A stretch of 64,000 nucleotides of DNA from the NCBI RefSeq assembly GCF_028288225.1, contig NZ_JAQBOC010000018.1:1-64000 (forward strand). Direction: 5' to 3'. A program made the translations under genes and the position numbers. Below the pieces are notes generated by a model. The model did not search any database and was not told the DNA's origin. It worked only from the letters and a program-made list of their open reading frames with translations. Below are positions 19,857 through 52,703 of this stretch, piece after piece (position 1 is the first letter of the stretch; the number at the start of each line of letters is the position of its first letter). Origin of the DNA: Mucilaginibacter sp. (lineage in GTDB: Bacteria > Bacteroidota > Bacteroidia > Sphingobacteriales > Sphingobacteriaceae).

Positions 19857-22800
19857 ATGAGTACTAAAGAACCCGAGCTGTTTGACTATTTCAAATCTGT
19901 TAAAGATGTAAAATCACCAGCAACGCATGCCGCACATCAATTAGACTCACTAATACCTAATCTGTCACTTTGTATTAAACTATTGATTTTATTTATCAAT
20001 AGTACGGATAGCGATTCTTCTTTGGAAAGACTACCAGATGATTTCAATCAATATTGTAATGTGATTTTATCAGACAACCTTTCGGGTTATCCAGTGGCTA
20101 TAGAAGGTTTGTCTCAAAAATTCGAAGCCTTTTTAAAGAAGGTTGGTTACCTCCGTTATAAGAATACTATTTATTGGAGCGGAGATAGTAGTCATATAGG
20201 GATAAAGGAAACAACACTTAATAATCTTTGTGACGGTATACTTGTACCACAAAAAGGTATGCCTAAGGGCACTGGAGCTAGGCACTTGCCACATCCTTTA
20301 TTTGCTTTTACTGGATTTAATCATGATTTAGTAGAATTCCTAAGAAAGGAACTAAGAAATAAAGTACATCAGGCTCCCAATATTCCTAAAAGAGATCTTA
20401 TTACTTATGCCGAATATGTATTGTTAGCATATCTATTCGTTGTTCAAGACAATTTATCATTACTATCAGAAAACCTTTCGATCGAAAGTAAGCATAATTC
20501 CAAGCTTGCAACTTATTTTTCAAAATGGCAAAATCGGTATGTGCAAACGATCTTTATTGAAAAAGACACTAATGATCTGGTTGAGCTATCCCCTCATATT
20601 ATTGAAACGGATTGGGATGTAAACAACCAAGCGCAATCATTTGTGCCCAAACAGGGCAAAATTCTAGATATTCTGGGTGATCTTAAACAGTTTGTAATAA
20701 TTGGCGATCCAGGATTAGGAAAAACTACTACATTGCAATTTCTCGGCTATCACTTAGCACGGCAGGATAAAAATTTGCCTTTATATTTTCCAATAAAAAA
20801 CTTTGTACCTAAAAGAGACTTACTTTCACAAGTTGCAACATATGCGGAATTAAGTCAAGATGTTATAAGTTCTTACAGAGAATCAGGATTCCTAGCTTTT
20901 TTATTCGATGGCATTAATGAGGTTCTTATTTCGGCTGATCAAGTTGAGCTCAAAAATCAGATTAAAAGTCTCCTTAAAGATTACAAGCATAGTTGTTTCA
21001 TATTCACAACTAGACCATCAGCATATAAAAACGATTTCAATATACCTGTATTCGAACTTCAAGCGTTAAACGACATAGAAATCATAGAGTTCATTCAGAA
21101 AAACCATCCCGAAAAGGCTACAACCCTGGTTACAGAACTCGAAAAACAACCAAAATTAAAAGAATTATGCCGAAATCCATTGATTTTGGTAATACTGTGC
21201 TCGCTTATTCAGCAGGCACCTTTTACCATTCCGTCTAATAAAGGTCTATTGCTTAAAAACTTTATTGATGCTTTGTTAAAACGAGAGCAGCATAAAAATC
21301 AACTATTTGACTGCTATAAGTATTTTAATTATCTCCTTGCACTTGGCTTACAAACCAGGATTGACGAACGCATTAGTTTCGACACGCACTATGCAATAAC
21401 CATTATATCGAAAGCTGTAGAACAAATTGACCCATCGGCGGATCGCTCAAAAATATTAATAGATCTAATTGATATTGGCTTGCTTACCAAAAACAATAAT
21501 CAGATCAGCTTTACTCACGAATTATACCAAGAATATTTCGCTGCTGAAGGAATATTACAAAAAAATCTACCAGAATCCGAATTGCAAGCATTTGAAGCTT
21601 CGACAAATTGGGAACAACCTCTTATTTTATACTCAGGATTAGTTGAACGTTACGACGAATTCATCGGAAGCCTTTCCGAACGCAACCCGATTTTGGCATT
21701 AAAATGCTTTGAAAGTTCAATTAAAAACGATGATGCCATACTTGCTGTCATTACTAAAAATGCTTTCATTAACTCTCAGAAAGTAGATAATATAAAAACA
21801 GCATCAAACGGGTTGATCACTTTACTTCGCCTTGGAGAAGCAAAATTATTCAACGAGTCGTTGGCATCAAGTATTGGCAAACACGGGGAAATTGTTTTTA
21901 GGTTGTTGGGACAGATATCATCCGTACTCGTCAAAACTATTGACTTTAACTATCTATTTGATTCCATATCAATCGTGGTTAATCTTAATAAGTCTTTTAT
22001 CCCATCGATTATTCGAAATCTTGGCAGGCGTAATCCTGAGGAAATCGTTAAAATCAAAGACCAATTATTTGATTTGTTTAAAAAGGATTTTTTTACCTCA
22101 ATTAAACCATCTTTTTTATATCGTTTCTTTCGTCTAATAGATCTTACTAGCGCCGAAAAAGTTGGTAAATCAAATTTGGAAAACTATTGTATTAAGCTTT
22201 GTAAAAATGACAATGCCCATTCTATTGAAAGTACAAATACAGCATGGAACCTCGTATCCCAATTTAAACTTTTTGATGATTCTAAATTTGTAACAAAGGT
22301 TATAGGTATATTGGTGAATAATCGTAAAGCAAATCATGGCTTTATTAAGAAGCTTGCTGATCATTCGCCCAATCAATTAGATAATATTATTATCGCTTGT
22401 CTTGACTCTAAAAACATTACCTGTCATTGCGTTGGAATATACTTGAGTATAGCTAACGGAAAAGAAGCAGCATTTAAGGAAGCTCTAGAGAAGCTATTTA
22501 TTTACCGTAACGAAGCTATTAAGAAAAGAATAGTCTCGTCCTATAATGACAATATGCTTGCTGAGAGAATAAGCGTGATCTTTAATCACGAAGTTATAAG
22601 ACGCTTACTAATTGAATTTGAAAAGAACAAGGCGACCGTTTACAAATACAAAGTAAAGGATATAAAAGACCAAATGATTGTTATTCGAATTAGAGGTCTT
22701 CATGTCCAAGGAAAACTCTTAGAGGCCGAAAGAATTACTAAAAACATTAAAAAAGATCAAGCACTAACTGTAAAACTTGCATTTATAGATCCATTTGCGC

Positions 22801-47763: not shown

Positions 47764-48729
47764 TTATTCCACCCCAACCTTTTCCAAATCAAATGGCACA
47801 TGCTCACTTATCTTGCTGATATCTAAAACTATCCGGCCGGTTTCATCACGGTCGAAAACAGGTTTAAATTTAGCACCCCAAATAATTTCATGAGCCTGGT
47901 ATTGTGTTCGTGAATGAACTGTTTGTGAAAAGGTATCATCAAACGCCCTTAAAAGAATAGCAAATCCTGCTTCTGATTTAATAAGCTCATCCTTCGTCAT
48001 GTCAATAAGTGGGCTATTTTCATCAAGCGGGTGCACAATTGTCCAGTTTAATGTTAACACGCTCACCTTGCGGCGTTCAAGTTCAAGGGGATAAAACCGG
48101 CGTACTGTTTTTCCATCCACGGTTTCATTGTATGAAAATATGATCTCAATTTCAAGGTCGATCAGCATATTTCTTCGCAGGTTGGCCAAACGGAACATCA
48201 CACCCCGGCCTGTATCCATGTAAGGCGCTACCAATATGTTTTTACTATATATAATTTGTGCCGATGGCCTCGAAAATCGCCCGTACAACAAGCCGGTTGC
48301 CAATGCAAATGCCAGTAGCCCCATCATTGACTCTAATGCAGCCACACTGTTTGTTGTCATCCCCCTTGGACTAATATGCCCGTAGCCTACAGTTGACATG
48401 GTTTGTGCCGAAAAAAAGAAGGCATCCATAAAATGATCGAACCTGGTATTTCCTGATGTTCCATCCAGGCTATGGGGGCCTATTGAAGTATAGATAAATG
48501 CAAATATTATATTGACAATTAAATAGCTGCTTAAAACAACCAACCAGAATTTTGTCCAGCTCATTGTAATTAGTGTATGGTAACTATTAGCTGTATTAAA
48601 AAATGACAGCCCTACACGTTTTACGTTGGGCGACCCGTCTTTATTCATTAAAGGCTGGTTTTTCATAACCGGCTGTGGACCAAAGCCTAGATCATCTTCA
48701 GGGTTTATTTTTCGTTTTTGGATAGCCAT
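47764..48729 (-). CDS. Inward-rectifier-type K+ channel (Kir/BacKir-like)
   Basis: SAQTMSTVGYGHISPRG selectivity filter TVGYG; C-terminal IRK-like domain; start placed at MAIQKRKI. Confidence 0.88.
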   Translation of the reverse strand: MAIQKRKINPEDDLGFGPQPVMKNQPLMNKDGSPNVKRVGLSFFNTANSYHTLITMSWTKFWLVVLSSYLIVNIIFAFIYTSIGPHSLDGTSGNTRFDHFMDAFFFSAQTMSTVGYGHISPRGMTTNSVAALESMMGLLAFALATGLLYGRFSRPSAQIIYSKNILVAPYMDTGRGVMFRLANLRRNMLIDLEIEIIFSYNETVDGKTVRRFYPLELERRKVSVLTLNWTIVHPLDENSPLIDMTKDELIKSEAGFAILLRAFDDTFSQTVHSRTQYQAHEIIWGAKFKPVFDRDETGRIVLDISKISEHVPFDLEKVGVE

Positions 48730-48812
48730 AATCAGATACATTAGCTTTATGCTTTGTAAAAATATCATTCTGCTTGCTTTTAGTAAAAACTATTTCCATA
48801 TTTGTGGCACAA

Positions 48813-48860
48813 ATGATAATAAAAGCAATAAACAATAATTGGTGGTGGCTTAACGAGTAA
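48813..48860 (+). CDS. trpL: trp leader peptide MIIKAINNNWWWLNE (un-annotated)
   Basis: atg ata ata aaa gca ata aac aat aat tgg tgg tgg ctt aac gag taa; three consecutive Trp codons, ~40 nt upstream of an intrinsic terminator, same strand as trpD. Confidence 0.88.
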   Translation: MIIKAINNNWWWLNE

Positions 48861-48900
48861 TCGTAAGGCAATTCCATTTATGTTTTTTCAAAATATTCAG

Positions 48901-48931
48901 AAGGGTTGCCATAATGGCAACCCTTTTTTTT
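48901..48931 (+). terminator. trp attenuator terminator
   Basis: aagggttgcca-taa-tggcaaccctt (11-bp stem) continuing into a T8 run. Confidence 0.92.
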
Positions 48932-49023
48932 GCCCCCCGGCCCCCTAAAGGGGGAGTTATTTGGAGGGTGAAATAGTAAACAATAAATAACCATTAAAAT
49001 CCCCCTTTAGGGGTTAGGGGCTT

Positions 49024-50013
49024 ATGAAGCAGATATTAAATCACCTTTTTGAACACAAAACATTTACCCGTGAGCAGTCAAAAGAAATTTTGACTGCTAT
49101 TGCACAGGGTAAATACAACAATTCGCAAATGGCAGCCTTTATGACGGCCTATTGCATGCGCAGCATTACCGTTAATGAGCTGGAAGGTTTTCGCGATGCT
49201 ATGCTTGAGCTTTGCCTGCCTATTGACCTTGAAACTGACCAGGTAATTGATCTGTGTGGTACTGGTGGTGATGGTAAGGATACTTTTAATATTTCAACAC
49301 TTGCCTCCTTTGTTGTTGCGGGAGCCGGTTATAAAGTTGCCAAGCATGGTAATTATGGCGTTTCATCTGGTTGCGGGTCATCAAATGTGATGGAATTTTT
49401 AGGTTGTACATTTACCAATGATACTAATAAGCTAAAAACAAATATAGACGAGGCGAATATTTGCTTTTTACACGCACCCCTTTTTCACCCTGCCATGAAA
49501 ACCGTTGCACCAATCCGCAGGGAGCTCGGGGTAAAAACATTTTTTAACATGTTAGGTCCATTAGTTAATCCGGCAAAACCAAAAAATCAATTGGTAGGTG
49601 TTTTTAATTTAGAGCTTGCCCGGGTTTATGCCTATCTGTATCAAAAATCGGATATTAAATACACTATAGTAAATGCACTGGAGGGTTATGATGAAGTGTC
49701 ATTAACCTGCGATTTTAAAACATTTTCGGGCGCTGGCGAAAAGATAAACAGTATTGAAAGTATGGGCTTTGAAAAACTTGACCCTAAAGATATTTTAGGA
49801 GGAAGTACGATCAGTGAATCGGCAGATATTTTTGTTGAAGTACTTAATAACCGCGCTACTGCAGCACAAAGCAATGTGGTTTTATGCAATGCGGCGTTGG
49901 CTATCAGCACAATAAATCCTCAAAAAAGCTTTGCTGATTGTTTTTATGAAGCAGAAGAATCACTGATCACCAAAAAAGCTTTGAAAAGCTTTGAAACATT
50001 AGTTGCTAACTGA
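49024..50013 (+). CDS. trpD: Anthranilate phosphoribosyltransferase
   Basis: DLCGTGGDGKDTFNISTLASFVVAGAGYKVAKHGNYGVSSGCGSSNVME. Confidence 0.95.
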   Translation: MKQILNHLFEHKTFTREQSKEILTAIAQGKYNNSQMAAFMTAYCMRSITVNELEGFRDAMLELCLPIDLETDQVIDLCGTGGDGKDTFNISTLASFVVAGAGYKVAKHGNYGVSSGCGSSNVMEFLGCTFTNDTNKLKTNIDEANICFLHAPLFHPAMKTVAPIRRELGVKTFFNMLGPLVNPAKPKNQLVGVFNLELARVYAYLYQKSDIKYTIVNALEGYDEVSLTCDFKTFSGAGEKINSIESMGFEKLDPKDILGGSTISESADIFVEVLNNRATAAQSNVVLCNAALAISTINPQKSFADCFYEAEESLITKKALKSFETLVAN

Positions 50014-50014
50014 G

Positions 50015-50641
50015 ATGAAGATAAAAGTTTGCGGTTTAAGAGATCCTGAAAATATAAAAGCTGTTGCAGCTTTAGAACCTGATTATGTAGGTTTTATATT
50101 TTATAACGGATCACCAAGGTTTATTGACGAATTGCAGGTTGAGGTTCTCGCGAATATTCCGGATACTATTAATAAAACCGCTGTTTTTGTAAATGAAAAC
50201 GCCGAAACCATTAATAAACTGATTGATAAATATGATTTTGATTTTATACAGCTGCATGGAAATGAGAACCCGGACTTCTGCAATTCATTCAGAGACAAAG
50301 CAATAGTGATCAAAGCATTTGGAATAAATAATGATTTTGATTTTGAGCAGCTAAAAGCGTACAAAAAGAAAGTAGACTTGTTTTTATTTGATACTAAAAC
50401 GGAAAGTCATGGCGGCTCCGGACAAACATTTGACTGGGACATCCTTGATAAATATGATTTAGAGATCCCTTTCTTTTTAAGCGGAGGAATAAGTCCTGAT
50501 AATATAGAAGAAGTAAAATACATCAATCATCCTCAATTTTACGGTGTTGATCTTAATAGTAAGTTTGAGATTTCGCCGGGACTAAAGAGCATTGAAAAAT
50601 TAGAAAAAGCATTTACTATTATTAAACAAAGCATAGAGTAA
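50015..50641 (+). CDS. trpF: Phosphoribosylanthranilate isomerase
   Basis: [17 protein letters not shown]...[13 protein letters not shown]...[11 protein letters not shown]. Start moved from 50003. Confidence 0.93.
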
Positions 50642-51822
50642 TGAAATACGGAGTTAATGAACAAGGGTATTACGGTGATTTTGGTGGAGCTTATATCCCC
50701 GAAATGCTGTATCCTAATGTGGAAGAATTACGCCAGCAATATTTAACTATCATTAATGATGATTCATTTAAGGCGGAATTCGACCAGCTTTTAAAAGATT
50801 ATGTAGGGCGCCCGTCGCCTTTGTATTATGCTAAAAGATACTCTGAAAAATATGGCGCCAATATATTTTTCAAACGGGAGGATCTGAACCATACCGGCTC
50901 GCATAAAATAAATAATGCTATCGGACAAATTCTTTTGGCAAAGCGCCTGGGTAAAAAGCGCATAATCGCCGAAACCGGTGCCGGTCAGCACGGCGTTGCA
51001 ACTGCTACCGTTTGTGCCCTTATGGGGATTGAATGTGTAGTTTATATGGGCGAGATAGATATGGCACGGCAGGCACCCAATGTTTCGCGCATGAAGATGC
51101 TGGGGGCCAAGGTTGTTCCGGCTATATCAGGCAGTAAAACATTAAAAGATGCCACCAATGAGGCCCTGCGCGATTGGATAGGCAACCCGGTTGATACACA
51201 TTACATCATAGGTTCTGTGGTTGGACCCTATCCATATCCTGACATGGTTGCACGCTTTCAGTCAATCATCTCTTTAGAAACCAAAAAACAGTTGCTTGAG
51301 CATACAGGTAAGGAATTACCGGAATATGTAATGGCATGTGTTGGCGGCGGCAGTAATGCAATGGGCATGTTCTATCACTTTTTGGATGACGAATCAGTAA
51401 AGCTGGTAGCCGTTGAAGCAGCCGGCAAAGGAGTAGATAGCGGTCATTCTGCGGCAACTACTTTCCTTGGTCGCGAAGGGGTTTTACATGGCAGCCGTAC
51501 CATATTGATGCAAACCGATGACGGGCAGGTGGTTGAGCCCTATTCCATTTCAGCCGGACTTGATTATCCGGGAATAGGCCCGCAACACGCCCATTTATTT
51601 AAAATTAACCGGGCACAGTATGTAAGTGTTACCGATGACGAAGCCTTACAGGCAGGCTTACTTTGCTGCCAGCTGGAAGGCATTATCCCAGCTATTGAAA
51701 CGGCACATGCACTTGCCCAGCTTGAAAAAATGGAGTTTAACCCAACTGACAATATAGTGATCTGTATTTCGGGCCGTGGGGATAAAGATTTGGATACGTA
51801 TATTAAATATTTCAATTTCTGA
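50641..51822 (+). CDS. trpB: Tryptophan synthase beta chain
   Basis: [46 protein letters not shown]. Confidence 0.97.
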
Positions 51823-51932
51823 ATCAGAATTCACTGAATTTAAGAATTTCCAAGATGCAATCGATGTTTAACACCAGACAATTTTGTTAATTCTAAAATC
51901 CTGTAAATTCTGATTCAGACAACTATAAAAAC

Positions 51933-52703
51933 ATGAACCGCCTTAATCAACTTTTCAATACAAAAAAGGATAATCTGTTATCCATCTACTATACAGCAGG
52001 TTACCCTGAACTGAACACTACTCTTGATATTGCCGAAGCTTTAGAAAAGGCCGGGGTTGATTTCCTGGAGGTGGGTTTCCCCTACTCTGATCCCGTAGCT
52101 GATGGCCCTACCATTCAACACAGCTCAGAAAAAGCTTTGGAAAACGGCATGACGCTTAATTTATTGTTTGAGCAATTGGCTGATCTGCGGAAACGGGTAA
52201 CTATCCCTATCCTGTTAATGGGCTATGCCAATCCAATGATCCAGTATGGTGTTGAGCGTTTTTGCAAAAAGGCAGCAGAAGTTGGTGTTGATGGCGTTAT
52301 TGTACCTGATTTGCCAATGTATGAGTATGAAACCTTATATGCTGATTATTTTAAAACCAATAACCTGAGCAACATTTTCCTGGTAACACCGCAAACATCC
52401 GAAGAGCGCATCCGCAAGATTGACGAATTGAGCAATAGCTTTATTTATTTACTTTCTTCGTCATCCATAACCGGCGGGAATTTACAGGTGTCTGTAAATA
52501 TCGAAGACTACTATAAACGAATTAAGGCGATGCAGCTAAAGAATCCGGCTATAATAGGTTTTGGGATCTCAGATAACAGATCATTTAACAAAGCCTGTGA
52601 ATATGCGGCAGGAGCTATTGTGGGCAGTGCTTTTGTTAAGTTATTGGGGGCGGAAGAGTATTTGGGTAAAATAGCAGGTTTTGTTAAGGAAATCAGGCCT
52701 TAA
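51933..52703 (+). CDS. trpA: Tryptophan synthase alpha chain
   Basis: DFLEVGFPYSDPVADGPTIQ; GVIVPDLP; GFGISD. Confidence 0.96.
   Translation: MNRLNQLFNTKKDNLLSIYYTAGYPELNTTLDIAEALEKAGVDFLEVGFPYSDPVADGPTIQHSSEKALENGMTLNLLFEQLADLRKRVTIPILLMGYANPMIQYGVERFCKKAAEVGVDGVIVPDLPMYEYETLYADYFKTNNLSNIFLVTPQTSEERIRKIDELSNSFIYLLSSSSITGGNLQVSVNIEDYYKRIKAMQLKNPAIIGFGISDNRSFNKACEYAAGAIVGSAFVKLLGAEEYLGKIAGFVKEIRP

Follow-up and report, generated by a model that had tools for sequence, protein, structure and literature searches.

A probable ribosome-mediated attenuator of trpDFBA transcription in Mucilaginibacter, orthologous to Bacteroid-trp elements

The window, a 64,000-nucleotide stretch of DNA from Mucilaginibacter sp. 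(contig NZ_JAQBOC010000018.1, positions 1 to 64,000 of the forward strand), carries a trp operon and, divergent from it, a potassium channel gene. A preliminary description, made from the sequence alone, placed an un-annotated trp leader peptide and an attenuator upstream of trpD, and the genes that follow are indeed trpD, trpF, trpB and trpA. The features of the locus are as follows.

47764-48768, minus strand: gene for a Kir-type inward-rectifier potassium channel, in divergent orientation to the trp operon (PF17655, PF01007)
48774-48804, plus strand: promoter-like sequence of the Bacteroidetes sigma-A type, with TTG at 48774-48776 and a -7 box, CATATTTG, at 48797-48804; predicted transcription start site at about 48809
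48813-48860, plus strand: leader peptide ORF, MIIKAINNNWWWLNE, with ATG at 48813 and stop codon TAA at 48858-48860
48840-48848, plus strand: three consecutive Trp codons, the putative sensor, within region 1 (sequence; predicted pairing)
48830-48885, plus strand: predicted extended 1:2 hairpin, with an apical stem (48849-48856/48861-48867) and a lower stem running through 48830-48885 (folding, pair counts)
48867-48874, plus strand: region 2, GGCAATTC, with its partner at 48903-48910 in the predicted antiterminator (pair counts, duplexes)
48899-48927, plus strand: hairpin of the intrinsic terminator, formed by regions 3 and 4, with 13 pairs and a TAA loop (folding z, covariation)
48924-48931, plus strand: eight consecutive T's closing the terminator (sequence)
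49024-50013, plus strand: trpD, first gene of the putatively controlled operon (TIGR01245)
50015-52703, plus strand: trpF (50015-50641), trpB (50641-51822) and trpA (51933-52703) (gene annotation, profile matches)

An inverted-repeat element of about 91 nt (48932-49022; core CCCCCTAAAGGGGG) separates the terminator from trpD, and its 3′ arm finishes directly before the trpD ATG. The element has 27 matching places in the genome, where its core occurs 36 times compared with 0 for a reversed control, and it is missing from the closest relative, L002. The trpE-trpG-trpC locus, which lies on another contig of the same genome, carries two copies (C72:21585-21671 and 22255-22339).

The leader ORF reads ATG ATA ATA AAA GCA ATA AAC AAT AAT TGG TGG TGG CTT AAC GAG TAA, which confirms the 15-codon peptide and the position of the three consecutive TGG codons as first described. 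TGGTGGTGG occurs once in the whole window, and as 0.34 occurrences on both strands are expected by chance, the TGG run by itself is weak evidence and takes its significance from conservation. That chance frequency is also what a constitutive terminator accompanied by an accidental WWW ORF has in its favour; the Trp run is conserved, however, and the pairings described below are conserved and covary across genera, which leaves this explanation with a negligible probability.

A scan with TrpD identified 80 relatives, ranging from Mucilaginibacter (at most 88% identity) to other genera and including Pedobacter, Sphingobacterium, Tenacibaculum and a Cyclobacteriaceae metagenome-assembled genome (MAG). 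Conservation of the Trp run and the terminator had been set beforehand as the point on which the attenuator reading could fail. Tandem Trp codons (WW or WWW) in a short leader ORF, followed by a terminator, were found in 79 of the 80, a count that leaves out, as biased, 29 loci recruited through the Rfam Bacteroid-trp model RF01692. The leader and terminator lie within 700 nt of trpD in 76 of the 80 relatives and about 2.1–2.3 kb upstream in L078, L079 and L081. The sole exception, L076, is a short MAG contig with no WW leader upstream of trpD; a different hairpin with a T-run lies upstream of its trpD, at 900-1290.

The peptide around the conserved Trp run often varies among relatives, and this bears on whether trpDFBA might answer to another tryptophan sensor, such as a T-box, TRAP or a TrpR-type repressor, with the leader ORF incidental. 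The run itself is kept in 79 of the 80 relatives, which speaks against an incidental ORF. The Rfam matches of the region include no T-box, and no mtrB or trpR gene was found: searches of the genome gave no match to TRAP and no TrpR over the cut-off, so that no competing known trp regulator is apparent. Control by another sensor is thus exceedingly unlikely.

Upstream of the leader ATG, a [TA][ACT]TTTG box is present in 69 of the 74 non-redundant relatives, compared with 8.9% of random 30-mers. Its distance to the ATG is 5–18 nt in 68 of the 74 loci, and an upstream TTG is spaced near-constantly, at 21–22 nt, in most relatives. The box in the window departs from the full TAnnTTTG consensus. In Flavobacterium johnsoniae, the G of this promoter box lies at -5 (PMC6847099), from which transcription is predicted here to start at about 48809, leaving a 5′ UTR of some 4 nt; 5′ UTRs across the F. 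johnsoniae genome are mostly longer than 10 nt (PMC6847099).

Downstream of the leader ORF, the hairpin originally described as an 11-bp stem, AAGGGTTGCCA-TAA-TGGCAACCCTT (48901-48925), is present and grows to 13 pairs. The T8 run, also as described, overlaps this stem, such that two to four of its T's double as stem bases. Folding of 48856-48935 yields −24.4 kcal/mol (z −4.5), and 0 of 200 shuffles were as good. In alignment A2, whose 74 non-redundant loci provided the pair counts and include about 21 drawn from RF01692-recruited loci or the same genera, 95.4% of cells in helix 3:4 are paired and 37 are double-change cells; the helix covaries at a score of 0.342, compared with at most 0.184 when it is slid. 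The hairpin ends no upstream gene, because the upstream neighbour is divergent. A simple terminator scanner run on the window did not list it, probably because the stem takes up part of the T-run. Matches of the hairpin to ctRNA_p42d, L20_leader, Phe_leader, csRNA and other weak Rfam candidates fall far below the cut-offs and were put down to generic terminator likeness.

The leader ORF and hairpins could in principle act through the translation of trpD or through RNA stability, rather than through transcription termination. The evidence on the element is comparative and a strong inverted-repeat element intervenes between hairpin and trpD start, both of which leave some room for such an effect. 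Nevertheless, relatives in which trpD begins almost immediately afterwards, such as L002, retain a G+C-rich hairpin that runs into T's, helix 3:4 covaries, and the conserved pairings exclude the trpD start region. An effect on translation or stability is therefore highly unlikely, and the hairpin is read here as a transcription terminator.

The helices that would compete with the terminator were found in part as first proposed. All four segments named in the preliminary description (48849-48856, 48861-48867, 48867-48871 and 48906-48910) lie at the positions given. The pairing of the first two as helix 1:2 is real and covaries, but it forms only the tip of the longer hairpin at 48830-48885; likewise, the proposed GGCAA/TTGCC antiterminator keeps its pairing and its position, as part of a longer helix 2:3 of 8 pairs (48867-48874 with 48903-48910). 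The proposed exclusivity of the two helices also needed the longer hairpin: the short 1:2 as originally written shares a single base, G48867, with 2:3 and is not mutually exclusive with it. In contrast, the extended 1:2 is predicted to pair UGG 48840-48842 with CCA 48874-48876 and UG 48846-48847 with CA 48869-48870; it thus overlaps region 2 and excludes 2:3. By coordinates and pair counts, 2:3 is also exclusive with the terminator helix 3:4.

Folding of 48830-48885 gives −16 kcal/mol (z −2.95), and the Trp codons are paired within the predicted extended 1:2 in all 74 loci, with z < −1.64 in 68 of them. The apical stem is paired in 78.8% of cells across the 74 loci and has 67 double-change cells; it scores 0.336 for covariation, compared with 0.148 for shuffled and at most 0.159 for slid helices. 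Within Mucilaginibacter, pairing is less regular in the lower stem (76.2% of cells) than at the tip (98.9%). RNAalifold returned no pairs, and hence no consensus 1:2 structure, from the cross-genus sequence alignment A3, probably because this alignment slips by one base between genera; the cross-genus support for 1:2 comes from pair counts on structures named in advance and from per-locus folds.

Helix 2:3 is paired in 85.4% of cells across the 74 loci, compared with at most 53.1% when slid. In 64 of the 74 its start lies 26–27 nt past the first Trp codon, with a mean z of −2.1 relative to shuffled region 2. As its covariation barely exceeds that of shuffles (score 0.189 versus 0.182) and, within Mucilaginibacter, is indistinguishable from them and not significant, the support for 2:3 lies in its kept pairing and position. 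Changes of partner are visible when genera are compared: Mucilaginibacter pairs GGCAAUUC with GGGUUGCC, several Pedobacter pair GUAACCCU with AGGGUUGC, and L092 pairs UGACA with UGUC. The check on helix covariation that was suggested at the outset thus found 3:4 and apical 1:2 covarying, and 2:3 conserved in pairing and position.

Taken with the downstream trp genes, conservation and covariation bear out the preliminary reading in outline, and 48813-48931 is very probably a ribosome-mediated transcription attenuator of trpDFBA, orthologous to RF01692 elements; from its sequence we infer that the operon is under Trp-dependent control. In the proposed mechanism, RNA polymerase would initiate at about 48809, and translation of the leader peptide would begin almost at the 5′ end of the transcript. 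With charged tRNA-Trp, the ribosome would reach the stop codon at 48858-48860 and mask region 2, upon which the terminator would fold and transcription would end near 48931. With uncharged tRNA-Trp, the ribosome would stall on the three Trp codons and open the 1:2 hairpin; the freed region 2 would pair with 48903-48910, in the 5′ arm of the terminator, while the 3′ arm is still to be made, and polymerase would then read through into trpD. Without translation, 1:2 would form and termination would be the default.

Masked folding, in which the edges of the ribosome footprint were assumed and the RNA was extended to 48912 or 48933, agrees with this sequence of events in partial RNA. In RNA to 48912, the probability of 2:3 was 0.84 with the assumed footprint on any Trp codon and 0.00 with it on the stop codon; with no ribosome, 1:2 had a probability of 0.67 and 2:3 of 0.21. 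In full-length RNA, to 48933, the terminator won whatever the mask, with a probability of 1.00 for 3:4. Since 3:4 wins at equilibrium, antitermination must be kinetic: the folds yield the on and off states as expected only with 2:3 acting as a kinetic intermediate, and by the same folds the outcome must be settled as polymerase moves from about 48912 to about 48927. The switch in the Escherichia coli trp leader is likewise held to be kinetic.

The E. coli trp leader has tandem Trp codons within region 1, alternative helices 1:2, 2:3 and 3:4, and an intrinsic terminator. It shares with the window a leader of 14–15 codons, tandem Trp codons, three alternative helices and the terminator, although its Rfam model, RF00513, scores 24.3 bits on the window and thus gives no match over its cut-off of 41. 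The window leader contains three Trp codons and that of E. coli two. Unlike E. coli, the Mucilaginibacter genome lacks a TrpR over the cut-off, and the predicted 5′ UTR of the window leader would leave no space for a Shine–Dalgarno site.

A closer counterpart is the Bacteroid-trp motif, which Weinberg et al. published in 2010 from computation (PMC2864571). With cmscan, the full RF01692 model (1-131) aligns to 48793-48910 at 44.5 bits (E 1.8e-4), falling 4.5 bits short of the gathering cut-off of 49 bits; this is the sole match at E ≤ 10 in the 6.77-Mb genome. Across the family, 67 out of 151 genomes match at E ≤ 0.1 and 8 exceed the cut-off, one of these at the Mucilaginibacter locus L087 (53.4 bits), whose leader region is identical in sequence to that of L003. 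The alignment, together with a Mucilaginibacter relative that passes the cut-off, assigns the element to a known kind, and on the strength of these sequence matches the window copy is regarded as a sub-threshold RF01692 orthologue rather than a curated member.

The homology extends end to end: the three Trp codons of the leader ORF occupy an identical model position, a long hairpin containing them is followed by the terminator 5′ arm, and in both cases a short ORF with a run of Trp codons precedes trp biosynthesis genes in Bacteroidetes. The model stops inside the terminator 5′ arm and hence lacks 3:4, which the window element has. The window copy also differs in heading trpD rather than the whole pathway, with trpEGC elsewhere. 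As a sub-threshold orthologue of a described motif, the element is of modest novelty. Bacteroid-trp is mentioned upstream of the Flavobacterium psychrophilum trp operon (PMC6414381), and the transcriptome of that species offers clues to leader-peptide attenuation at amino-acid operons (PMC9723704). F. psychrophilum belongs to the same phylum but another class, and the mechanism proposed at its amino-acid operons, including trp, is the same; the portions of PMC9723704 and PMC6414381 consulted contain no helix-by-helix covariation of the kind given here for the window. To the extent of these sources, the attenuator type is documented in the lineage by computation rather than by functional test.

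A second Trp-rich leader precedes trpE. This leader, MIKINHNNSWWHQLILAAG (L113 1341-1475; G000:C72), is of the WW type and distinct in sequence from the trpD leader. It is followed by a strong series of hairpins (z −4.86) and preceded by a perfect TTTG-N18-TAAATTTG promoter sequence, 8 nt before the ATG. Each of the 30 Mucilaginibacter trpE loci read has a leader and attenuator of this kind. Across the family, 28 genomes of 10 genera contributed 29 trpE loci that likewise have a Trp-rich leader with a terminator-like hairpin. In some Pedobacter-type trpE leaders (L156-L160, L163 and L172), the Trp codons are spaced, as W-L-W or W-Q-W, rather than adjacent. RF01692 gave no match to the trpE leader, and the element is unmatched in Rfam.

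The trpE terminator covaries, and region 2 changes along with it, pairing as GCAUCGGG with CCCGAUGC in L175 and as GCGUCGGG with CCCGACG in L169; these 2:3 helices were assessed as listed duplexes, since region 2 is out of register in the trpE alignment A4. The trpD and trpE leader ORFs both begin about 8 nt after a Bacteroidetes-type -7 box, and each is predicted to have a 5′ UTR of some 4 nt, which is unusual for the phylum. No prior description of the trpE attenuator or of the near-leaderless starts was found in the main text of open-licence literature.

It is conceivable, with chances slightly short of even, that the family senses tryptophan through two attenuators, one at trpDFBA and one, unknown to Rfam, at trpEGC, with both leader peptides translated from nearly leaderless, Shine–Dalgarno-free mRNA. 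The ribosome that reads the stall would then be one that initiated right at the 5′ end, and classical attenuation would, if this is true, have a distinct mode of initiation. The near-absence of a predicted 5′ UTR makes these leaders a good case for how leader ORFs are found in a phylum largely without Shine–Dalgarno sites. A pathway divided between two independently attenuated operons would supply a natural internal control, in which the same signal is read by different RNA sequences. With its helices defined and compared, a computational motif of 2010 that has had little follow-up becomes a mechanism that can be put to the test in a genus amenable to culture.
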